From positions 1-64,000 of the IMG/VR virus record IMGVR_UViG_3300020195_001430: DNA of 64,000 nt; one strand, given 5' to 3'. Origin of the DNA: a virus. Positions 4,650-59,002 of the stretch are shown here, one piece after another. The stretch's first letter is position 1. Every line of letters begins with the position of its first letter. Made by a program: the position numbers and the translations under genes. Below the pieces are notes generated by a model. The model did no database searches. It was not told where the DNA came from and saw only the letters and a program-made list of their open reading frames with translations.

Positions 4650-4689
4650 AGAGTGTGTTGGAAGTTTATCCTCCAACACACTCTTTTTA
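4650..4689 (+). terminator. Rho-independent terminator
   Basis: Perfect 13-bp stem pairing 4650-4662 with 4672-4684, followed by a run of five T. It ends the structured RNA at 4560-4649, only six bases before the next ATG. Confidence 0.85.
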
Positions 4690-21836: not shown

Positions 21837-21950
21837 ATGGAAGAACTGCTTCGTAAAATCAGTAGACAACTTGAAGAGATCATCATTCTTTTGGAACAGG
21901 CGGCTGAAAGAGAAAAAACATTTGTACCACCTGACTGTGAACATCTATAA
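21837..21950 (+). CDS. Small helical peptide, 37 aa
   Basis: ATG 21837 lies behind GGGAGA, two bases after the cupin stop, and encodes one amphipathic helix and a short Pro/Cys tail. No homologue recognised; the good ribosome site makes expression plausible. Confidence 0.45.
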   Translation: MEELLRKISRQLEEIIILLEQAAEREKTFVPPDCEHL

Positions 21951-21963
21951 AGAAAGACAAGTC

Positions 21964-22890
21964 ATGAAGAATTATCACTTGGATTTGATCCGTGCTGTAG
22001 AAGCTGGAGCGATCCATGCGGCAGAATGGGTTGGTCGTGGAAACAAAGAAGAAGCGGATCTGGCAGCAACCAACGCCATTAGAGATCGTCTGAACAAGAT
22101 CGACTTTCGTGCTGTAATTGCAATTGGAGAAGGTAAAAAAGATGAGTCGCACGGGTTGTATCAAGGAGAAGTTGTAGGAATTGATAGAAAACTTAGTGAT
22201 GGATTTGAGTATTCCATTGCCATTGACCCAATTGAGGGCACAACTCCAACTGCCAAAGGTGGTTATGAAGCGATGTCTGTAATTGCATTGGCCAATGTCG
22301 GAGCCATGTATCAAACAGAGACATTTTACATGAACAAGTTGGCTGTTGGGCCACAAGCCGCACATCTCCCGATTGGGCTTGATCAAAGTGCCATTACAAA
22401 TATTGCACTGCTTTCTCAGGCTTTGGGCAAGTCTCCTCAACACATTACAGTTTGTGTTCTGGACAGACCTCGCACAAAGCCATTGGTTGAAGAACTGAGA
22501 AAGATCGGCTGTAGGATCAAATTCATCTCAGATTGCGATGTAACGGCCTGTATTGCGACTTGTGTGCCAGACAGCGGAATTGACATGTACTGGTCTGTAG
22601 GCGGTGCCCCAGAGGCTGTAATCGCTGCTGCTGCCATGAAGTGCATGGGTGGAAGCCTCCAATGCCGTGAGATGGTGGTTAATGGGGACTCCTGCACCGC
22701 ACTTGAAGAGAGAATCTTGAAAATAGAGGATCTTGTTAAGGGCGACTGTATGTTTGCGGCCACTGGAATTACTGACGGACAACTCCTCAAGGGAGTGAGA
22801 TTTACGTCGAATGGCCCTGTCACCAGTTCGATTGCCATGCGATCTGAAAGCGGAACAATCCGCAGAATGATTACAGAGCACGGCAATTGA
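21964..22890 (+). CDS. glpX: Fructose-1,6-bisphosphatase class II (GlpX-like)
   Basis: 308 residues. GlpX signatures in order: AIHAAEWVGRGNKEEAD near residue 15, AIGEGKKDE near 55, DPIEGTTPTAKG at 88-99 (lithium-sensitive phosphatase metal site), GGAPEAVIAAAAMKCMGG near 215, and ATGITDGQLLKGV near 262. It hydrolyses fructose-1,6-bisphosphate (in cyanobacteria also sedoheptulose-1,7-bisphosphate), a committed step of gluconeogenesis or the Calvin cycle. It is an auxiliary metabolic gene here. I chose ATG 21964; the frame is open further upstream over the 37-aa peptide. Confidence 0.9.
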   Translation: MKNYHLDLIRAVEAGAIHAAEWVGRGNKEEADLAATNAIRDRLNKIDFRAVIAIGEGKKDESHGLYQGEVVGIDRKLSDGFEYSIAIDPIEGTTPTAKGGYEAMSVIALANVGAMYQTETFYMNKLAVGPQAAHLPIGLDQSAITNIALLSQALGKSPQHITVCVLDRPRTKPLVEELRKIGCRIKFISDCDVTACIATCVPDSGIDMYWSVGGAPEAVIAAAAMKCMGGSLQCREMVVNGDSCTALEERILKIEDLVKGDCMFAATGITDGQLLKGVRFTSNGPVTSSIAMRSESGTIRRMITEHGN

Positions 22891-24529: not shown

Positions 24530-24814
24530 ATGGAAAAATCAGATATTCTAAAAGCAGCATCAAACGCTTATTACTTGAATGCCAGCATGATCAAATTTTT
24601 GCTGGTTGAGAATTTGGCACTCAAGACCCTTCTCCATGAGAAGGGCTTGATTACGCCTGATGAATATAAGAAGTATCAAGAACATGCTGGAGCCATTCTT
24701 GCAATGAAAGAAGAAACTCAGATGTTGGCATATTTCCAGAAGATCTTGGAGAATAATTCTAGTTCTCCAGCCATTTCTGAGGATAGCTCGGCGGAGGCAA
24801 CTCATAAAAGTTGA
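24530..24814 (+). CDS. Hypothetical helical protein, 94 aa
   Basis: Predicted helical, with a Ser/Ala/Glu-rich tail. No family recognised. Its end overlaps the convergent minus-strand membrane gene by 56 bases. Confidence 0.55.
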   Translation: MEKSDILKAASNAYYLNASMIKFLLVENLALKTLLHEKGLITPDEYKKYQEHAGAILAMKEETQMLAYFQKILENNSSSPAISEDSSAEATHKS

Positions 24815-25373
24815 ACTCATCGCCGCCTTCTGTCATGCCTTCTCCGCCCTTGCCACCTTTTTTGCCCTTGGCTTTTCCTTTGCCTTTTCCATCGCCACCT
24901 TCACCAACTTCTCCTACACCACCATTGCCGCCTCTTCCAGCCATAAATTTGCCGCCCTTGGCGATTTGCTGTTGGATCTTCATGGCTTGCTCGTGACCTT
25001 TTCTGGTATAAGGCGTTTTGTGTAGTCTTGGCTCTCCGTTGATGTTTTTGTGTTTGGTTGAGATATACCAAGAGTGCGATGTCTTTTCTGGCTCAAGGTC
25101 TTTGATCCAAATATAGATCGCCCCCGGAGCATCAGTTTTTTTGTTTGGCTCTTCAACAGTGATCCACTTGATCTCAAATTTGGCCGGGATGGTTTCTGTT
25201 GTCGGCCATCCTTGGAGATCATCCAGAGATTGCCAGAGTGTGATTGAAAACAACGAGGCAATCACTACTGCGGCAGCTTTTAGAATCCACCATCCTTTGG
25301 AGCCAATGATGATCCAAAGGGCGAGGGACGCAATGATTATGAATGTCAATGGGATTGCAAATGTTTCTATCAT
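24759..25373 (-). CDS. Membrane protein with Gly/Lys-rich tail, third gene of channel operon
   Basis: 204 residues. Two hydrophobic segments (about 5-25 and 30-48) are followed by a roughly 100-residue beta-type domain. A low-complexity Gly/Lys/Glu stretch (about 145-185) and a Pro-rich end close the protein. Its start overlaps the stop of the ExbD/MotB-like gene by 4 bases, so it is translated from the same transcript and likely works with that channel. No family recognised. Confidence 0.65.
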   Translation of the reverse strand: MIETFAIPLTFIIIASLALWIIIGSKGWWILKAAAVVIASLFSITLWQSLDDLQGWPTTETIPAKFEIKWITVEEPNKKTDAPGAIYIWIKDLEPEKTSHSWYISTKHKNINGEPRLHKTPYTRKGHEQAMKIQQQIAKGGKFMAGRGGNGGVGEVGEGGDGKGKGKAKGKKGGKGGEGMTEGGDEFNFYELPPPSYPQKWLEN

Positions 25374-26080
25374 GGTGTTCCCTCCGGGTTAGCTGGAGCA
25401 GCTTCTGGGTCTGGATTTGTAGGTGGCGTGTACTCTGGGAATGAGATCTGAGGTTGTTGGTATTGAGGAACCTGAACTTGAGACTTCGCAAGATCCTTTG
25501 CCAGATCATTGACACTTGTTACGTCTCCGGCATTATCCAATGTGAATCGGAATCCTGTCTTCTCATCGCCAGTTTTTCCAAGCTCAACTTCTTTGATCGT
25601 AATTGTCTTTAGTGCAGGATTGATCTTCTCAAGTTTTACTGTGACTTTGGTTTTCTCTGCTTTATCTCTCTCGGAATACATGTGGACATTGACCACATAC
25701 TCTCCGGGAATGATGCCCCTGATACTGACAATCTCTCTGTTTTCACGCACAATTACCATCGAGCCATCTGCCATTTTAATGGCATCGTTGCTTGTCCCAA
25801 GATCATCACGATCAAGATGCAACAATCCTTTTTCTCTGGCTCTGAAGAATACTAGGTTGCCAAGCGGGTCTTCGACGTAAGTGTCTACGTCATTGTTTGA
25901 ATTCTTATCCCAAGTAATGGAAATGAGGAATTCAGCTTTGGATTCAACCTTGTTGTTCTTTTCTTCGATCTTTTTGCTTATCATCAAGAACGACAACATG
26001 AATAAGCAAATGAACACGCCCAACAGATTTGTAGCCAAGTCTGTCATGGCAATGCCGGGACCGTATTGTTCTTTACTCAT
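25370..26080 (-). CDS. ExbD/MotB-like membrane protein with a DUF2135-like domain
   Basis: 236 residues. The N-terminus GPGIAMTDLATNLLGVF places an Asp (residue 14) at the start of a single membrane helix, as in ExbD, TolR, MotB and ZorB, where it carries protons. After a short coiled segment, residues about 48-150 read ISITWDKNSNNDVDTYVEDP, then a Gly-Glu-Tyr strand, resembling the DUF2135/YfaP beta-sandwich. The C-terminus is Pro/Gln-rich. It overlaps the TolQ-like gene by 8 bases and the third gene by 4. Confidence 0.75.
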   Translation of the reverse strand: MSKEQYGPGIAMTDLATNLLGVFICLFMLSFLMISKKIEEKNNKVESKAEFLISITWDKNSNNDVDTYVEDPLGNLVFFRAREKGLLHLDRDDLGTSNDAIKMADGSMVIVRENREIVSIRGIIPGEYVVNVHMYSERDKAEKTKVTVKLEKINPALKTITIKEVELGKTGDEKTGFRFTLDNAGDVTSVNDLAKDLAKSQVQVPQYQQPQISFPEYTPPTNPDPEAAPANPEGTP

Positions 26081-26588
26081 CCAAAGCTCTCCTTCTGGCG
26101 TGGCCGAGGTTGATGTATTGGAGCTTCAAGAAGAAGCTGCACACCAATCCGGCGAGTGTGGTGTAAAGAGCGGTAGACATTCCATACACCAGATCTGCAA
26201 TGAGTTTCTGGACTGCTCCCATGTTGGACGGGTCAATTCCTACGAATCCCTTGAGGGCGTAGACGATTCCCACAACAGTTCCAATAAATCCCCAGACAGT
26301 GAACTGTTCTGCAATGAACCAACCGACCTTTTCCAAGTCTTTTGTTTTTGTAACATTGACTGGAATGCCAAAGATCTCATTGCGGTTGAGGTGATGACTT
26401 AGAACGAATGTTTTTACTCCACACCAGATTGATGTGAACACAAAAACAACAGCGATGCTAAGACTGATATATGACCAGTCTTTTTCGAGAATTTCTGCAA
26501 ACAAACCAAACTTGTTGCAGAAGAAAGCTCCTACAGATGTGACCGCTGCAATCAATAGCCATCTGAGGAATGCGATGTGTTTGACCAT
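26073..26588 (-). CDS. MotA/TolQ/ExbB-family proton channel protein
   Basis: 171 residues with hydrophobic helices near 8-25, 42-60, 100-118 and 140-160. The family signature is clear: WGFIGTVVGIVYALKGF followed by DLVYGMSTALYTTLAGLVCSF, equivalent to the GTVxG and ALxTTxxGL motifs of ExbB/TolQ. It should form the pentameric part of an inner-membrane proton-driven motor with the ExbD/MotB-like partner. It has its own promoter and lacks the long tail of ZorA. Confidence 0.85.
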   Translation of the reverse strand: MVKHIAFLRWLLIAAVTSVGAFFCNKFGLFAEILEKDWSYISLSIAVVFVFTSIWCGVKTFVLSHHLNRNEIFGIPVNVTKTKDLEKVGWFIAEQFTVWGFIGTVVGIVYALKGFVGIDPSNMGAVQKLIADLVYGMSTALYTTLAGLVCSFFLKLQYINLGHARRRALDE

Positions 26589-26618
26589 ATTGAGCCTTTC
26601 TTTGTTTTAGGCGATCTT

Positions 26619-26647
26619 AATATAGTCATAGAATTGATAATCTGCAA
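26619..26647 (-). promoter_or_regulatory. Sigma70-like promoter of the ExbB/ExbD-like operon
   Basis: On the minus strand, TTGCAG (26647-26642), a 17-base spacer and TATATT (26624-26619) lie 31 bases before the TolQ-like ATG. This gives the three-gene operon its own transcript. Confidence 0.6.
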
Positions 26648-26654
26648 TATGAGA

Positions 26655-27332
26655 TCATTCAGAGATTTGCTGCTGGCGTTTGATTTTGGTTCTCAATTGG
26701 CCGAGTCCAACCTCTGTTTGTACGGCGAATTGCCAACCGTGATTGAGGGCATGATCATTCATAGCACCCCATTTTGCACGGTTTTGCTCATAGGCTGTCT
26801 GATTGGCTGGTTTGATTTCCCAGATTTCTGTACTGCCATCTACAAAATTTACTCGGATGTCAGGAATGTAATCATGCCAAGCACCTTGGTAGTAATAAGG
26901 AACCTTGAACGGTTCAGCGAAGAAGTTGGCGACATCACAGTCTGATTCTAAAAGTTCGTAGAACTCACATTCCATTCCAGATCTGTAAGGAATATCGCAT
27001 CCGCCTTTCTTGGATGAGAAAGTTCCAGTTCTGAATGCAACCTTCTTGGTGGTCTTCTTTTTCTCTCCGCCAGTTTTGAAGTCACGCCAGATGGCTACAC
27101 GAGTCTGCAATCCTTTAGGCATGACTCGTTTTGGGTGTTTGGCTTTGTAGTGGGTGACAAGATCACGTACCGGGGCATCACAATCTGGGCACTTGATGAA
27201 TTCCCGGCCTTCTTCGTGATTGCCGATGATATGTTCTTTGTAGGCTGGAAAATCTTCGTAGTTTCTCCCACAAACGAAGCACTGCCATTTTCTGGTATTT
27301 GCTTTTCCAGCATCTTCAAACAATTTAGACAT
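26655..27332 (-). CDS. C2H2 zinc-finger protein with TnsA-like nuclease domain
   Basis: 225 residues. Two N-terminal C2H2 fingers (CFVCGRNYEDFPAYKEH.. and CPDCDAPVRDLVTHYKAKH) precede a C-terminal PD-(D/E)XK domain. The latter has SGMECEFYELLE (first Glu), YIPDIRVNFVDG (Asp) and EIWEIKPAN (Glu-x-Lys), the order of TnsA-type endonucleases. It probably recognises DNA through the fingers and cuts it. It is the third gene of a minus-strand run starting at 28209. Confidence 0.75.
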   Translation of the reverse strand: MSKLFEDAGKANTRKWQCFVCGRNYEDFPAYKEHIIGNHEEGREFIKCPDCDAPVRDLVTHYKAKHPKRVMPKGLQTRVAIWRDFKTGGEKKKTTKKVAFRTGTFSSKKGGCDIPYRSGMECEFYELLESDCDVANFFAEPFKVPYYYQGAWHDYIPDIRVNFVDGSTEIWEIKPANQTAYEQNRAKWGAMNDHALNHGWQFAVQTEVGLGQLRTKIKRQQQISE

Positions 27333-30527: not shown

Positions 30528-30975
30528 GCCATAAAAGAGTCTGTTGACAGGAAATCCATGATTGGATAGACTTTATTGAGACGATTCCATTAGTATGGGA
30601 TGTTGCAATACAAACTCGATGGCACCCCATCGGCGGTTTAGGGCACCGACTGTTGCGATTGCGAAAATTAAGACTTTTGATCACTCAACACGATTTATGA
30701 TGCTTTTGCAGCGATGAAGCCCATATTTTTACCAGTCTTCGGAGCCGAAAGCCCCTACATCGTAGATGCTTGGTCACAAAGCGAGTGAGCGAAGCGAACG
30801 AGACTGCGACCAAGCCCTTTAGGGTAGGGGATGAAGGCGATGGACTAAAGATGGGCTTAAAAGTTTCTCTCCTTCAAAGCAGAGTGACGCTGGTCGAAAA
30901 GGACAAAAGCACCGTCCGCTCAGACTTTCTTGAAAATTGCCTCAGAAATCTGATGCGGCTACTCTATATAAGTTC
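30528..30975. other. Non-coding region upstream of tnpB with nested inverted repeats
   Basis: No gene apart from an optional TTG-initiated N-terminal extension of tnpB from 30937. Three nested perfect stems share one axis: 30717-30724 with 30851-30858 (8 bp), 30752-30758 with 30824-30830 (7 bp) and 30768-30775 with 30808-30815 (8 bp). Small side hairpins include a CCC-TTTA-GGG loop like that at the right end of the element. It may be the left end of the transposon, an RNA, or both. Confidence 0.5.
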
Positions 30976-32139
30976 GTGGGAGTAAATTACACATATCGGT
31001 TTCGTCTTCGACCAACCGCTGAACAACAAACACTGCTTGCCAAACACTTTGGTTGCAGCCGATACCTCTACAACTACTTTCTCGCACGACGCAAACAAGA
31101 ATACCTCACCACTGGTAGGAGCAATAACTTCGTCCGTGACTGCAAAGAACTGACCGAGTTGAAGAAGACCGTCACTTGGCTCAAAGAAGTAAACAGCCAA
31201 AGCCTGCAACACGCCATCAAGAACCTCGATGCCGCCTACGGTAACTTCTTTGAAAAGAGAGCAAAGTTCCCGACCTTCAAGAACAAGAACGGTAAGCAGA
31301 GCTTCCGTGTACCACAGAACGTCAGATTGGTAGACGGCAAGCTCGTCATCCCGAAGTTCTTGGAAGGCATCAAGTGCGTCGTCCATCGTGAAGTCAAGAA
31401 GGAAATCTCGTATTGCACGATCACCAAAAACAAGAGTGGACAGTATCACTGTACACTCTTGGTCGAGAAAGAGATCGAACATCACAAGCCAGTAGATAAG
31501 GAAGTCGGTGTCGATCTCGGCATCAAGACGTTGATCGTAGACAGTGATAATCAGCAGTATGCCAACATCAAGCCGTACCGGACGTTGAAGGCTAAGTTGA
31601 AGCGTGTGCAAAGGAAGTTCAGCAAACGTAAGGAGAAGACGACTGATAAGAAGTCGAAACGGATCGAGAAACTTCGTGTGAAGTTGGCAAGAGTACACCA
31701 GAGGATCAAGGACGTTAGGCAGAACCATCTGCACCAGACGACCAAGAAACTGATTGACGAAAACCAAGTCATTTATCTGGAAACACTCGCTGTCAAGAAC
31801 ATGATGAAGAACCATTGTCTTGCGGGAGCGATTGCCGACTGTTCGTGGTTTGAATTAACCCGACAGTTGGAATACAAGGCGGCTTGGTATGGCAGGAATG
31901 TCGTGAAGATTGACAGGTTCTTCCCAAGTAGCAAGACTTGTAGCAGTTGTTTCTTCATCAAGCAGGACATGAAACTGAGTGATCGGGAGTGGATTTGCCC
32001 TGAGTGTGGGGTGAAGCACGACCGGGATCACAATGCAGCGAGGATGATCTTGTTGCAAGGTAGGAAAACTACGGGTGGAACGCCCGAAAGTAAAGCTCGC
32101 AGACTCAGAAGCAAACCGACTGAACTTTCAGTCGGCTGA
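30976..32139 (+). CDS. tnpB: TnpB RNA-guided nuclease (IS605 OrfB family)
   Basis: 387 residues from GTG 30976; TTG 30937 would add 13. The N-terminal wing reads YRFRLRPTAEQQTLL. RuvC acidic residues are all present: Asp180 (GVDLGIKTL), Glu269 (YLETLAVKNM) and Asp351 (HDRDHNAA). The zinc motif is CSSC...CPEC. TnpB is an omega-RNA-guided DNA endonuclease that keeps the element at its donor site. The gene appears intact, and the usual omega-RNA position (3' end of tnpB into the right end) is preserved. The element lies directly upstream of thyA. Confidence 0.92.
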   Translation: MGVNYTYRFRLRPTAEQQTLLAKHFGCSRYLYNYFLARRKQEYLTTGRSNNFVRDCKELTELKKTVTWLKEVNSQSLQHAIKNLDAAYGNFFEKRAKFPTFKNKNGKQSFRVPQNVRLVDGKLVIPKFLEGIKCVVHREVKKEISYCTITKNKSGQYHCTLLVEKEIEHHKPVDKEVGVDLGIKTLIVDSDNQQYANIKPYRTLKAKLKRVQRKFSKRKEKTTDKKSKRIEKLRVKLARVHQRIKDVRQNHLHQTTKKLIDENQVIYLETLAVKNMMKNHCLAGAIADCSWFELTRQLEYKAAWYGRNVVKIDRFFPSSKTCSSCFFIKQDMKLSDREWICPECGVKHDRDHNAARMILLQGRKTTGGTPESKARRLRSKPTELSVG

Positions 32140-43176: not shown

Positions 43177-46104
43177 ATGGCAAAAGTTTCTAAAATGATG
43201 AGTGGGTCTCCGATCCTTTGTGGCGATAACACAATTCCGGGATTGAAGATTCACAAAGAAGTTCTCGAACAGATTCCCGCTATTGAAGCGGCCTGTAAAG
43301 GTATGGGTCTGGACTACTACCCAATCATCGTGGAATTCGTCAGATATGACGAAATGGCAGAACTCGCCAGTTATGGCGGATTTCCTGTAAGATACCCACA
43401 TTGGAAATGGGGAATGGAATATGAAGAACTCTCCAGAGGTTACGAGTACAATCAATACCGTATCTCTGAAATGGTAATTAATTGTTTGCATCCAGAAGCT
43501 CCAGTCTTAACATCACAAGGCACCATATCGGCTAAAAATGTTAAGACGGGAGATGAAGTTTTGTTAGATGGCAGAACAAGGAATGTAATCGCTGTTGTGC
43601 GACAACCAAAAGCGAAGACTAAGAAAATTCGTCTTCGTAAAGGGCAAGAAATGATTTGTTCTCCAAATCATAAATGGAAAGTTTTGACAAAAAACGGACC
43701 TGACTGGGTTGAAACAAAAGATCTTAAATCAGGAGATATTTTGTTGGGCAACGATTCATTCAATATGGTTCGTTGGGACACTAAATTGCAATGGTCCTTG
43801 GATGATGTGTGGGACGACACTCGGCCAGCATCCAGACCTTGGCTTAAAAAAATTGTTCCGCCAGCAGAAATGAATTTGGCTTTGGCAGAACTTTTGGGCG
43901 TGCTAATTGGAGATGGTTCGGTTGGGGTTCAAGGTGCAGAAAATAATTTAGCTGTAGCTGTAGGAAAAGATAATCGCCAATATGCTGAACACGTGGCATC
44001 GTTATTTTCTGTTGTTTTTGGATTAGAGGCTGTAATCCAAGAGAAAACGGCTGGGTTGGTTGTTCTTTTGCAGTCTAAAGTTGCTGTTGATTTTGTTGAT
44101 TATCTTGGCATAAACAAAGGTTCTACATATGAGAACAAGAGAATCCCACATTCAATTTGGAAATCTCATCCGATTTTCAGAGCAGCGTTCCTAAAAGGTT
44201 TATTTGATACAGACGGATATGCCACTGATCAACTCGGCATGAGTTGTTTTAATATTAATCTTGCTAATGATGTCCAAATTATGTTTTCTGAGATGGGCAT
44301 TCAGACTATATTAGAAACATTGACAAATGGCACAGGAAAATACGGCAATGAACTATTCATCAATGTTGTAGAAATTAGAGGACAAGCCGCTCTTAGAAAA
44401 TTCCGGGACAGGATTGGATTCACTATTCCTTACAAAACACAGGGCTTGAATAAACTCACATCACGAATTTATTGTCGTGGCGGAGGGATTCATTCTGAAT
44501 ATATTCAAAACTCTCTTTTGGAATGGGGAGAAGAGATGGATATTACATCTTATAACTGTCCGTCTCTTGGTCGCTCGCTGAATCAGATGAAAAAGAAAAG
44601 TGTTGGAAACAACTGTTTGCTCAGCTTTATTGAAAGGGCGGCTAATGTTGAGAAATATAATTCACCAGCGGAACTGTTGATGATATTAGAAAACCCAATG
44701 TTTGAGGTTCAAGATGTGCTAGATGGTGAAGAAACAGAAACAATTGACATTGCTTTAGATCATAACGATCATGATTTTATAGCTTATGGTCTTGTTACTC
44801 ATAACACCAACCCATGCTACATCTATTGCATGGACTCAAACACACTTGTTGACAACGTGGACGTTATAGCCCACGCTATTGGTCACAACGACTTCTTCAA
44901 GAACAATATTTTCTTCGAGCCGACCGATGAAAACATGATGAACAAGTTGGCCAACCACGGCACCAGAATCAGGAAATACATGTCCCGTTGGGGATATGAA
45001 GTGGTAACTGAATTCATTGATCATGTTCTGAGGATTGACACTTTGATTGATCCACAACATGCGTGGAGCAAGAAGACGATCAGAAATGCTGTTGTTAAAG
45101 ACGAGAGAAGTTATCTGTTTCCAGAGCGTCTCAAGTCACACCACAACTACATGGATGAATGGGTCAACCCAAAGAGCTTCATCGACAAACAGCACGAGGA
45201 CATTGAGAAGCAAGAAGCCGCTCAATTCTTGGACATCTTCGAGAAGCCTGAGAAAGACATTCTGGGATTCATCAAGGACAATGCTCCTTTGAAACCATGG
45301 CAACAAGACATCATCAGTATGCTGTATGAAGAGTCGATGTACTTCCAGCCGCAACGTCAAACGAAGATGCTCAATGAAGGTTGGGCGTCGTATGTTGACT
45401 ATCATCTGATGTGCCGAGAAGGTCTCTGTAATCTGGGGCAGAAGAAGGATGGCGACGGTATTTGGCATTACGCCGATCACAAGTGGCGAGTTCTGGGCGG
45501 CAAGTATTCCATGAACCCATACAAGATGGGATTTGAGATCCTGTTGGATATCGAGGATCGTTGGAATAAGGGTCGATTCGGCAGGGACTACGAAGAGTGC
45601 CGTGACATCAAGAAAAAGGAAGACTGGGATTTGAAGCTTGGTCTTGGCAAAGAGAAAGTCTTTGAGGTTCGCAAGTTCTACAACGACTACACAGCAATTC
45701 AAGAGTTCTTCACGCCAGAGTTGTGTGAGAAGAAGCAATTCTTTGAATGGCGTCTCTTCCCTAACGGCGAATACAAGATCATCAACCGGGACTTCAAGAC
45801 GATCAAGCAGAAACTGTTGAAGAGATACTTGAATGGTGGCTTGCCAGACATCAGACTTACTGATCCAAATCACTTGGGCAAGGGCTGGTTCTTCATCAAG
45901 CACATGTGGGACGGTCGTCCTCTGGAAGAACGATACGCCAGAGAAACAATCATCTCATTGTTCAAGCTGTGGCAGAATACGATTATTCTGTCTACACAAA
46001 CGATGGAAGACAAGGAGTTTGTCTACATCTGTGATGGAACTAATCCTGACAAGGATGTTCACCTTCTGACACGTGAAGAATACGAAAAGGATTTCATGCG
46101 ATGA
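43177..46104 (+). CDS. SpoVR-family protein precursor containing an intein
   Basis: 975-codon precursor. The extein (residues 1-102 and 544-975, 534 residues after splicing) matches SpoVR/YcgB: YYPIIVEFVRYDEMAELASY, GYEYNQYRISEMVIN joined to TNPCYIYCMDSNTLVDNVDV, then HAIGHNDFFKNN with conserved His. SpoVR works with PrkA and YeaH in stress and sporulation-linked responses in bacteria. The intein interrupts the conserved VIN/TNPC region. The next gene overlaps the stop by four bases (ATGA). Confidence 0.92.
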   Translation: MAKVSKMMSGSPILCGDNTIPGLKIHKEVLEQIPAIEAACKGMGLDYYPIIVEFVRYDEMAELASYGGFPVRYPHWKWGMEYEELSRGYEYNQYRISEMVINCLHPEAPVLTSQGTISAKNVKTGDEVLLDGRTRNVIAVVRQPKAKTKKIRLRKGQEMICSPNHKWKVLTKNGPDWVETKDLKSGDILLGNDSFNMVRWDTKLQWSLDDVWDDTRPASRPWLKKIVPPAEMNLALAELLGVLIGDGSVGVQGAENNLAVAVGKDNRQYAEHVASLFSVVFGLEAVIQEKTAGLVVLLQSKVAVDFVDYLGINKGSTYENKRIPHSIWKSHPIFRAAFLKGLFDTDGYATDQLGMSCFNINLANDVQIMFSEMGIQTILETLTNGTGKYGNELFINVVEIRGQAALRKFRDRIGFTIPYKTQGLNKLTSRIYCRGGGIHSEYIQNSLLEWGEEMDITSYNCPSLGRSLNQMKKKSVGNNCLLSFIERAANVEKYNSPAELLMILENPMFEVQDVLDGEETETIDIALDHNDHDFIAYGLVTHNTNPCYIYCMDSNTLVDNVDVIAHAIGHNDFFKNNIFFEPTDENMMNKLANHGTRIRKYMSRWGYEVVTEFIDHVLRIDTLIDPQHAWSKKTIRNAVVKDERSYLFPERLKSHHNYMDEWVNPKSFIDKQHEDIEKQEAAQFLDIFEKPEKDILGFIKDNAPLKPWQQDIISMLYEESMYFQPQRQTKMLNEGWASYVDYHLMCREGLCNLGQKKDGDGIWHYADHKWRVLGGKYSMNPYKMGFEILLDIEDRWNKGRFGRDYEECRDIKKKEDWDLKLGLGKEKVFEVRKFYNDYTAIQEFFTPELCEKKQFFEWRLFPNGEYKIINRDFKTIKQKLLKRYLNGGLPDIRLTDPNHLGKGWFFIKHMWDGRPLEERYARETIISLFKLWQNTIILSTQTMEDKEFVYICDGTNPDKDVHLLTREEYEKDFMR
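43483..44805 (+). other. LAGLIDADG intein in SpoVR
   Basis: 441 residues. It begins at Cys (CLHPEAPVLTSQG) after extein VIN and ends at His-Asn (AYGLVTHN) before extein Thr. Splicing blocks are visible: block B as CSPNHKW and block F as HDFIAYGLVTHN. In the middle, LLGVLIGDGSV and FLKGLFDTDGY are the two LAGLIDADG helices with catalytic Asp, so the homing endonuclease appears intact. Confidence 0.9.
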
Positions 46105-51628: not shown

Positions 51629-53297
51629 TGCACCATCCAATTACAGGTTTTGAACATTTGCATCGTCATAGTGATTTTAGCCTCAACAATTAGGGGGCCT
51701 TGTCAGAGAAATCTGATAAGCAAACCGGGTGAACTCAGGGAAACCCTAACGTAAAGACGAGGGCAATCCTGAGCCAAGCCTGCGATACATCGCAGGAAGG
51801 TGCAGAGACTACTGGAGGGATAAAGTTCCCTTAATTACCAGATTCAGTGCCCGGCATCCATTTTGGATGATGATATAGTCCACGCCACAGGAAACTGTGG
51901 AACCGTCGTGCTTAGACGGATTCGCCATGGTCTCCGAATACGCCGAGCGTATGCGGGAAATCAATCAAAAGTTTCTGTGCATTACAGACCACGGGGTGAT
52001 GGGTGCTGTGCCACAGCAAGTATCCGAAAGCGAGAAACACAATCTGTTTCCGCTATTCGGATGCGAGCTTTACATCAACCACATGCAGCCAGAAGTCAAC
52101 AGCCGGGAAGAGTCGGCTGAATACAGAAAGTCTTTGGGAGATGGATCGACTGAAGATCGTACTTCCATAGACAAGAAGCCAAGTCTGCTGCAAAAGAAGT
52201 TCGACAAGTCGTCGCACTTGTTGGCCATTGCCTACAACAACGTGGGCTATTCCAATCTTGTGCGTTTGACATCATGGGCATGGATTCACGGTTACTACCG
52301 TCGCCCACGCATCAATCACGAAGTCCTTCAGAAGTACAAAGAAGGCATCATCTTTACGACCGGCTGTGGCAACAGCGAGATCGCCAATGCTTTTATGGGC
52401 GACAAGGATGAGTCAGGCAAGCCGATCTTCAATGAAGAAGCCGGATTCCAAATGTTGGAACGGTATATCCAGATGATCGGCACCAAGCACCTCAAGCTTG
52501 AATTGATGATGCTGGACTGGGTGATGCAGAAGTTCTACAACCAGTTCTTGATCAAGGCCCACGACAAGTATCGTCTTGATCTTACGCTCTCACAGGATTG
52601 CCATTACTGTAAGAAAGAGCACAGCCATAACCAGCAGTTGATGCTCATGCAGCAGAACAAACGCACGCTTGGTGAAATCCAAGCGATGATCGACGCTGGC
52701 GATGCCGATGACATTTTCGAGCTTCAGGACACGAATCTGTGGCTCAAGTCGGAAGATGAACTGAATGTCAAATGGGAATCTGATTTCAGCGACATCATTC
52801 CATACGAACTTTTTAAGCAGTCCAAAGAGAACACAGTCAAAATCTGTGAGTATGCGAAGGGCGTGGAGATTGATCGTCAGATTAAGCTCCCGAAGATGCC
52901 TGACGCTGAAGAACAACTCATGGATCACATCAAACGAGGATTCCTTTCTCGTCACTGCCCCAAGACGCCAGAATACTCCAAGCGGATCAAAGAGGAATAT
53001 GAATTGATCTGCGAGAAGGGCTTTGCCAGCTACTTCCTGATTCAGAAGATGATGACGGATGAGGCTCGTGTCAAAGGCCCAGAACTTCTCGGATTTGGAG
53101 ATGGATCAGAAGCTGTTGGTCCCGGTCGAGGATCGGCCTGTGGATCATTGGTGGCCTACTGCTTGAGGCTCCACGATGTGGAACCCATTGTTCATGACTT
53201 GAGATTCTCCAGATTCTTGAGTCCTGCTCGTGGTGGTCGCCAGATGCGGATTCGGTATGGAATGGAACCGATCCCGCACGAGATTGTACAGATGTAA
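51625..53297 (+). CDS. dnaE: DNA polymerase III alpha (DnaE), N-terminal part, split gene
   Basis: Exons 51625-51683 and 51911-53297 join to give about 481 residues. Exon 1 ends in HLHRHSDFSL and exon 2 begins LDGFAMVSEY, restoring the PHP-domain start. Further PHP motifs are CITDHG and SQDCHY. The protein then enters the palm: YFLIQKMMTDEA, AVGPGRGSACGSLVAYCL and RFSRFLSPARGG. It stops there after EIVQM, without the catalytic aspartates, which are encoded 7.3 kb downstream at 60608. AAAGGGA precedes the ATG. Confidence 0.88.
51684..51910 (+). ncRNA. Group I intron without an internal ORF
   Basis: 227 bases. The 5' splice site follows U51683, which pairs as U-G in P1 (exon GCCU with intron GGGGC). 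Conserved core pieces are visible: AATCCTGAGCCAAG (Q region), GGTGCAGAGACTA (R/P7) and GATATAGTCC (S/P7'). The intron ends in G51910. Splicing restores the DnaE frame exactly. Confidence 0.9.
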
Positions 53298-56301: not shown

Positions 56302-56475
56302 CTATTCACTTGGCATTACCATCGCCAAAACAATGTAAATCACGACTGGAAAACCAACGCCCATGATTGCGGCAACTGCAAAACACAGTCTTACAATTGT
56401 TGGATCAATATGGAATTCATTGGCTAAGCCAGAGCAAACGCCAAAGATCATTTTGTTGTGTATGTCTTTTTTCAT
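56302..56475 (-). CDS. PspC-domain membrane protein
   Basis: 57 residues from ATG 56475 behind GAGGA. IFGVCSGLANEFHIDPTIVR followed by a hydrophobic segment and LAMVMPSE matches the PspC domain (GVxxGLAxxxxxDPxxxR, membrane helix, then LxxxMPxE). In bacteria PspC senses envelope stress and relays it to the Psp response. A phage copy might mimic or quench that signal. The gene is divergent from the ADP-ribosylglycohydrolase gene. Confidence 0.8.
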   Translation of the reverse strand: MKKDIHNKMIFGVCSGLANEFHIDPTIVRLCFAVAAIMGVGFPVVIYIVLAMVMPSE

Positions 56476-56562
56476 GTTTTTCCTCGCTTGAGTTATTTAG
56501 ATCACAACTTGTGTTTTTACAGAAGTTATGGTATCTATGAGTATTACAGAAAGAAGGTTCAC

Positions 56563-57510
56563 ATGTTAGTTGAAATGGCAATAGGGGATGCCTACGGTGC
56601 TTGTTTTGAATGCACAAGCAACGATTTTGTGGCGAGAAACAACGATCTTAACTATGAGATCCACCCAAGAGTTCTAAGAAGATATCCTGCGGACAAGCAA
56701 CCAACTCTTGTTCCAGCAGGGTGTTATACAGATGACACACAGATGTCAATTGGCATTGTCGAGATGATGCTCGATAAAACCTTTGATTGGCATGACAAAG
56801 AAGCGATGGCTGATGTTTTCTTGAAGTGTTTTAAGCAAGATGAGCGGCGTGGGTATACTCCATATCTCTTCTTGACGTTGATGAACAGCAAATCGGGGAA
56901 AGAGCTTCTTTCAAAACTCAACGGCGACAGTGATAAATCAGGAGCTTTCATGCGTGCCGCACCAATTGGCCTCTACTCTGATCTGGATGAAGTGAAAGAG
57001 AAGGCGGTATTGCAGGCTATTGTCACACATGATTCATGGGTTGGCAGGAATTCAGCGATTGGAGCCGCCATGATGGCTCATTACTTCTACCATGATCTTG
57101 GGCCGAAGAATGGCATGATCCAATGGCTCAAGGACAATCACTTCAAACACACGTTGTTCGCCGAGAAGCCATTTTTAGTTCCATCTGACACAAATCCAGA
57201 AGGGGTCGAGGTAAAGCCTTGGAAGCAAGACAAACGTGTCAGAGTTCATGGTTGGGATTGCTTTGAGGCAGCGGTTTACGTTATAAACGAGTGTGAAACG
57301 ATGTCTGAGGTGTTGCATTTGTGCGTGGCTCTTGGCGGAGACTCAGATACGGTTGCCGCTGTGGCGGCAGCAGTTGCAAGTTGTTCCAAAGAAATCGACC
57401 AAGACATTCCAAGTCAACTGATTGAAGGATTTGAGGACGGACCTTTCGGCCACAAATTTTTGGCCGAGTTGGACATTCAACTGAAGGAGGCTTTCCCATG
57501 CGGTGGCTAA
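56563..57510 (+). CDS. ADP-ribosylglycohydrolase family protein
   Basis: 315 residues from ATG 56563 behind AAGG. AIGDAYGACFE near residue 6, CYTDDTQMS with DDT at 57-59, and the C-terminal ALGGDSDTVAAVAAA with GGDSDT at 258-263 give the two magnesium-binding clusters of DraG/ARH enzymes. It removes ADP-ribose from proteins or nucleic acids. In a phage this could undo toxin- or defence-mediated ADP-ribosylation. Confidence 0.88.
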   Translation: MLVEMAIGDAYGACFECTSNDFVARNNDLNYEIHPRVLRRYPADKQPTLVPAGCYTDDTQMSIGIVEMMLDKTFDWHDKEAMADVFLKCFKQDERRGYTPYLFLTLMNSKSGKELLSKLNGDSDKSGAFMRAAPIGLYSDLDEVKEKAVLQAIVTHDSWVGRNSAIGAAMMAHYFYHDLGPKNGMIQWLKDNHFKHTLFAEKPFLVPSDTNPEGVEVKPWKQDKRVRVHGWDCFEAAVYVINECETMSEVLHLCVALGGDSDTVAAVAAAVASCSKEIDQDIPSQLIEGFEDGPFGHKFLAELDIQLKEAFPCGG

Positions 57511-58625: not shown

Positions 58626-58998
58626 GGGGTCGATTGGCTTCGACATGGTGACGTGTGTGCAATGTGGCGATCCGAGGCTTGTGTGGTGGACTCGTAAAAA
58701 CCAGACAAAAAACCAACTGGCAACACTGTTGCTCCTCTCCGAATGGCCGCTTAAGCGGTGCCGGGTGTAACAGCCCGGCGAGAATGATCCGACGACGCCT
58801 GATAGTCGGAATCATCAGCATCAGGATTAGTCCAACAGACCGCTGTCGTAGGTCGAAGTGGACGAGAATCAAATCGACTGGTCTTCATGAAGCCGTGTCT
58901 TCTTGGGCGTTGTGAAGATGAGATCAAACCGCAGACTATGATCGTAGAGGCGTGCAGGCAGGCACTTATGGACAGGGGTTCAATTCCCCTCGACTCCA
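58626..58998 (+). ncRNA. ssrA: tmRNA (ssrA)
   Basis: Rescues stalled ribosomes. The 5' GGGGTCG (58626-58632) pairs with 3' CGACTCC (58991-58997) in a 7-bp acceptor stem with the G3-U70 pair that marks alanine tRNA. The T-arm AGGGG-TTCAATT-CCCCT precedes it, and CTTCGAC lies in the D-like region. CTCGTAAAAA and a run of A lead to the tag frame 58719-58754, GNTVAPLRMAA followed by TAA, giving the tag A-GNTVAPLRMAA. CCA is not encoded. It is complete, with its own promoter and terminator. Confidence 0.93.
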
Positions 58999-59002
58999 CT
59001 GA

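Follow-up and report, generated by a model that had tools for sequence, protein, structure and literature searches.

The window, a stretch of 64,000 nucleotides that covers the greater part of a virus record of 65,289 bases (IMGVR_UViG_3300020195_001430), carries on its minus strand three coupled genes, here named A, B and C, which represent a conserved, unannotated family found in many unrelated phages. Sequence homology, the coupling of the genes and their invariant residues point to an inner-membrane motor of the 5:2 type (as in MotAB, ExbBD, TolQR and ZorAB), and we lean slightly towards the view that A-B-C encodes such a motor, driven by the proton motive force, which would remodel the envelope towards lysis. 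Proton-driven stator motors are known from flagella, nutrient uptake, division and one defence system; the cassette would add to them a 5:2-type family that is new and common to phages and cells. Hundreds of viral stretches, some of them contigs of more than 200 kb, contained the putative motor genes, as did culturable Rhizobium phages and chromosomes of alphaproteobacteria. This raises the question of what a phage gains from energising the envelope of its host.

Organisation and components of the cassette

Gene A (P0001; 26073..26588, minus strand; 171 aa) was assigned as a minimal channel subunit of the MotA/TolQ/ExbB type, gene B (P0002; 25370..26080, minus strand; 236 aa) as an axle-type subunit with an N-terminal helix and a predicted periplasmic beta-sandwich domain, and gene C (P0003; 24759..25373, minus strand; 204 aa) as a two-helix protein with a small, putatively periplasmic alpha/beta domain and a flexible Gly/Lys-rich tail. 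As had been described in an initial sequence-only reading of the window, the three frames are coupled by overlaps of 8 bases (A/B) and 4 bases (B/C). The same reading had placed the trio behind its own promoter, but this part did not hold: a sigma-70 scan upstream of A on that strand yielded no promoter and a number of sites not above that in shuffled sequences, and the T4 late promoter TATAAATA had a single occurrence at 4688 and none for the trio. A same-strand gene lies upstream of A, with a gap of 66 nt to the A start, and A-B-C may be co-transcribed with it. This gene (26655-27332, minus strand) encodes a fusion protein that has a TnsA-like nuclease domain behind a zinc-finger-like N-terminus and that matched the phage head-closure family phrog_218. 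On the plus strand, a 94-aa gene (24530-24814) converges with C and overlaps its 3' end by 56 bases, an arrangement also kept in a relative (L002, 7733-8017).

The remainder of the window holds T4-type replication and repair genes (DnaB-like helicase, SSB and UvsX). A complete tmRNA gene (58626-59001, plus strand; Rfam RF00023, 150.9 bits), missed by ARAGORN, was detected as well, and a group I intron (51674-51901, plus strand; Rfam RF00028) directly precedes the DNA polymerase reading frame at 51897. A SpoVR-like protein (43177-46104, plus strand) contains an intein with a LAGLIDADG domain. We also observed genes for a GlpX-type fructose-1,6-bisphosphatase (21871-22890, plus strand; Pfam E 7e-105), with a GlpX-like gene in the related locus L012 (7189-8175), for a transposase (30937-32139, plus strand; phrog_506, integration and excision, E 1.6e-123) and for an ADP-ribosylglycohydrolase-like protein (56458-57507, plus strand; phrog_6572) that possibly serves counter-defence or host takeover.

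Protein A exceeded the Pfam cut-off for MotA_ExbB (PF01618; 30.1 bits, cut-off 22.9, E 4.6e-7), and 60/61 of its relatives matched this family at E 0.01 or better. The A family profile also matched solved chains of MotA, TolQ, ZorA, PomA and ExbB (e.g., TolQ, E 2e-5; ExbB, E 0.02). About four transmembrane helices were predicted, with no large cytoplasmic domain or tail and with the C-terminus only about 16 residues past the last helix. The TM3-TM4 channel core (residues 92-156; 26121..26315, minus strand) comprises G100, G103, T104, T144 and G147. Among 146 phage and cellular sequences, G100, G103 and T144 were invariant (146/146) and G147 was present in 142. A thus carries the superfamily hallmark, GxxG(T) together with the Thr of the two pore helices. 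By these sequence features A is a channel subunit of the MotA/TolQ/ExbB kind, in agreement with the earlier assignment as a TolQ/ExbB/ZorA-like channel. A tblastn search of A against isolate phages gave nothing significant, and the link from the window to the isolates runs through B.

The structure model of B (mean pLDDT 87) exhibited a helix at residues 8-42 followed by a beta domain. Residues 10-55 weakly matched ZorB1 (PADLOC, E 0.0015). The single N-terminal helix bears Asp14 (codon 26039..26041, minus strand), the presumed ion-carrying residue, which was Asp in 71/71 distinct phage-type B proteins and in 138/139 non-gap rows of the combined phage and cellular set. This conservation is not circular, because the relatives had been found via another part of B, L[DL]RDD[LRI]GxxN. 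The view of B as a one-helix partner with an ion-carrying Asp is thus supported. For the external domain (residues 49-191; 25508..25936, minus strand), which displays a TerD-like fold, hhalign gave a probability of 98% for DUF2135 (PF09906; E 2e-13, 113 columns), with only three sequences on the DUF2135 side of the comparison. Direct Pfam matches to DUF2135 were weak (5/64 B proteins, best E 0.0039), and the B profile also matched a DUF2135 protein at E 3e-9. The best structural rows were mostly TerD, with Z up to 11.5; we therefore considered B as a membrane-anchored TerD (PF02342) and rejected this candidate, since the hhalign probability was 0.6%. Based on the profile comparison (98% vs 0.6%), we call the domain DUF2135-type, consistent with the sequence-only reading. 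Scans of 64 B proteins gave no Pfam match to ExbD/TolR (PF02472; E 0.05) or to an OmpA-type peptidoglycan-binding domain. Lacking the OmpA domain of MotB/ZorB and bearing a DUF2135-type domain instead, B is indeed, as had been proposed, not a standard member of this class.

C was recognised from the outset as a Gly/Lys-rich membrane protein, and its model (pLDDT 75) shows two helices and a Gly/Lys-rich tail. The loop between the helices has a net charge of +2.2 and is positive in 99% of relatives, so that by the positive-inside rule the alpha/beta domain would be periplasmic. The flexible tail ends in the conserved short motif LPPPSYPQK (residues 192-200; 24774..24800, minus strand). In the marine phage set, L192, P193, P194 and K200 were nearly invariant, and a motif of the LP..LPxK type was found in 65/147 C tails compared to a mean of 0.18 in shuffled tails. 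Pfam assigned no family to P0003 and none consistently among its relatives, and none of 61 C proteins matched TonB or TolA. In a fold search, the best PDB rows (Z 4-6) consisted of short pairs of helices and of weak matches of the SSB-like kind, and a BFVD search returned a transmembrane protein of Rhizobium phage Y68. C is thus a new protein without a named family.

In a motor of this type, a pentamer of A would surround a dimer of B, and protons would be expected to take a path past Asp14 in B and the Thr of TM3/TM4 in A. Either A would turn around B or B would move. As A is almost devoid of a cytoplasmic part, the output would be periplasmic; candidate output elements are the B head, of DUF2135 type, and an arm provided by C. 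Like TonB and TolA, this arm, with its tail ending in LP..LPxK, could extend to a target in the periplasm or the outer membrane. We infer that the cassette works on the periplasm and the outer membrane.

Distribution in phages and cells

The B profile matched 259 IMG/VR stretches, of which 80 were kept. Because loci were chosen by B, cassettes without B or with a diverged motif would have been missed. Gene calls at the loci were mechanical, and IMG/VR contigs may include mis-called fragments, while the isolate phages are unambiguous. A search for the same three genes in phages had been suggested, and the order A-B-C was recovered in 87/87 loci holding all three, drawn from the kept IMG/VR stretches and the isolates. 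Gaps of at most 30 nt separated A and B in 80/87 cases and B and C in 81/89. The cassette is under purifying selection, with dN/dS of about 0.05-0.1 against the nearest relative at dS near saturation. Given the constant order and these dN/dS values, the trio lies far beyond chance.

Cassette-bearing contigs reached 527 kb, including jumbo-size ones. Isolates with B amounted to 27 records, every one a Rhizobium or Sinorhizobium phage, and belonged to at least four types: 152-158 kb Pootjesviridae, 68-kb N3_13-like, 171-kb I1_18 and temperate 16-3-like phages. Their cassette genes are annotated as hypothetical or by number alone. The cassette now supplies names for such genes, for instance p038, p040 and p042 of phage 16-3, at present called hypothetical. 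T4-like relatives such as phiM9, Atu_ph04, ORM_20 and OLIVR5 share gp46 and are absent from the B matches, which indicates that the cassette is an accessory but stable module.

The same genes occur in cells. B-profile matches were obtained in 60/385 alphaproteobacterial, 17/349 Pseudomonadota and 4/247 Rhizobiaceae genomes, a few of the weakest being DUF2135 proteins and not B. The numbers for alphaproteobacteria led us to reject a phage-only family. The label "phage operon" in the sequence-only reading is accordingly right as to the presence in phages but too narrow, since the cassette is also chromosomal in many alphaproteobacteria. Most fetched cellular loci carried A-B-C, many of them on long chromosomal contigs with neighbours common to related genomes. 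Each of the Azospirillum replicons gave two B matches; A-B-C was present at the one inspected. In 7/37 chromosomal loci a lipoprotein gene directly follows C (six found by regular expression, L147 by eye). This uncharacterised lipoprotein (L147, L148, L151, L152, L158, L161 and L162) has a YFP(L/F)..W.Y-like motif and might be a fourth component.

A tree built from 128 B proteins placed the window inside a phage clade of 42 rows and the temperate Rhizobium phages on a different, cellular-rich side. The cellular label needed three changes on this tree, which argues that the cassette was exchanged between phages and cells more than once and suggests independent acquisition by phages; the direction of exchange depends on how the tree is rooted. 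The stable neighbours of the chromosomal copies imply that the ancestral role was probably ordinary cell physiology and not lysis.

A phage copy might serve envelope upkeep: a host-type motor, working like Tol-Pal without Pal, would stabilise or energise the outer membrane and envelope while host synthesis is shut down and so prolong infection before lysis. In line with this explanation, many alphaproteobacteria carry the cassette as a stable operon in the chromosome, sometimes followed by the lipoprotein gene, and the B lineages of phages and cells intermix. We nevertheless regard it as somewhat unlikely. Chromosomes of Rhizobiaceae are almost devoid of the cassette (three of the four genomes with B have prophage-type loci), yet their phages possess it, so that the phage copy is not a simple replacement of a host function there. 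A protease partner that was observed in loci of phages and prophages but in none of the chromosomal ones also speaks against upkeep.

Neighbouring genes and role in infection

This partner is a secreted trypsin-like protease, encoded upstream beside the cassette in 3/3 temperate Rhizobium phages and 8/8 prophage loci, 11 nt upstream of A in a distant, unrelated marine locus (L014), and in 0/40 chromosomal loci. A marine clade represented by L042 exhibited the order endolysin-Rz-Rz1-A-B-C, with the endolysin assigned to phrog_315 (2e-49), Rz to phrog_739 and Rz1 to phrog_812. An endolysin gene was also found near the cassette in L007, L008, L092 and L097 (upstream in L097) and beside it in prophages where readable. 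These protease and endolysin links are descriptive and have no baseline from random phage loci. Neighbour scans across all loci revealed no general lysis linkage, the upstream neighbours being heterogeneous, and in the window, the Pootjesviridae and most marine loci the cassette does not adjoin lysis genes. We hence discarded a general linkage and confine the association to a single marine clade and to temperate Rhizobium phages. The connection to lysis raised at the start is retained for some phage groups (endolysin, Rz, Rz1, protease) and is absent in the window.

The role during infection is the least certain part of our proposal. Tentatively, we assume envelope remodelling, most likely a decoupling or loosening of the outer membrane around lysis, with the secreted protease acting alongside the motor in several lineages. 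Because lysis and protease genes neighbour the cassette in independent phage groups, we favour lysis-directed remodelling, with some reservation, over envelope upkeep and superinfection exclusion. The lipoprotein gene after C in chromosomal loci supports an outer-membrane reach. That a dedicated proton-powered machine mechanically detaches or breaks the alphaproteobacterial outer membrane appears improbable; such a device would replace or assist spanins by motor power and would come to a halt when the proton motive force breaks down through the action of the holin.

Superinfection exclusion or anti-phage defence, in which a Zorya-like motor senses or blocks incoming phages and is used against competitors, could be invoked because A is similar to ZorA and the B N-terminus to ZorB, and because temperate phages carry the cassette between lysis region and integrase, a usual place for morons. 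However, A has no long ZorA tail and B no OmpA-type domain. Among 134 upstream neighbour proteins of viral loci, PADLOC models, applied upstream only, gave no match to ZorC, ZorD or ZorE, and other defence genes were not enriched. The chromosomal copies lie among stable housekeeping neighbours, not in defence islands. We consequently judge exclusion to be unlikely.

Far less probable still is an ExbBD-like energiser of nutrient or ion uptake acting as an auxiliary metabolic module. Marine hosts are nutrient-limited, and the window phage has other metabolic genes (the FBPase GlpX); yet the commonest upstream neighbour families included no TonB, TonB-dependent receptor or transporter, and B has no ExbD match. 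Nor are the homologues host-derived ExbBD next to TonB genes, an origin that had been weighed against the motor operon, given that the third gene is particular to the cassette and that Pfam gave no match to TonB or TolA. Lysis-directed remodelling thus stays our preferred, if tentative, reading.

Relation to known motor systems

Among the closest known systems is ZorAB of Zorya, which was the best match in PADLOC both for A (E about 1e-6) and for the B helix (E 0.0015) and which shares the channel core and the Asp. ZorA models, in contrast, span 420-780 positions with a long cytoplasmic tail, whereas A has only 171 aa; the peptidoglycan-binding domain of ZorB is absent from B, and the third gene differs from those of Zorya. 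Zorya was therefore dismissed as an identity, the likeness being a resemblance only. With TolQRA and ExbBD-TonB the cassette shares a three-component layout including a third, periplasmic arm protein, but the large cytoplasmic domain of TolQ/ExbB is absent from A, the ExbD/TolR fold is replaced by the DUF2135-type domain, and C is a two-helix protein without a TonB/TolA match. No Pal, TolB or receptor was seen near the cassette.

Stators with many different appended domains and partner proteins have been described as generic ion transporters (mBio 2025, PMC12505986) and with vWA force transducers (PMC12204202). The parts of these two papers that were searched mention no DUF2135-bearing partner and no phage-encoded motor, and a literature search, with many subscription papers outside its scope, gave neither a phage-encoded motor nor DUF2135 in connection with motors. 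The matched DUF2135 (PF09906) proteins are mostly larger, with open frames of some 270-1150 aa, and none was seen to be a motor subunit. The cassette is thus neither Zorya nor Tol-Pal nor ExbBD-TonB. Structural studies would gain from it a small and minimal motor that has a DUF2135 head and whose third component is as yet unstudied.
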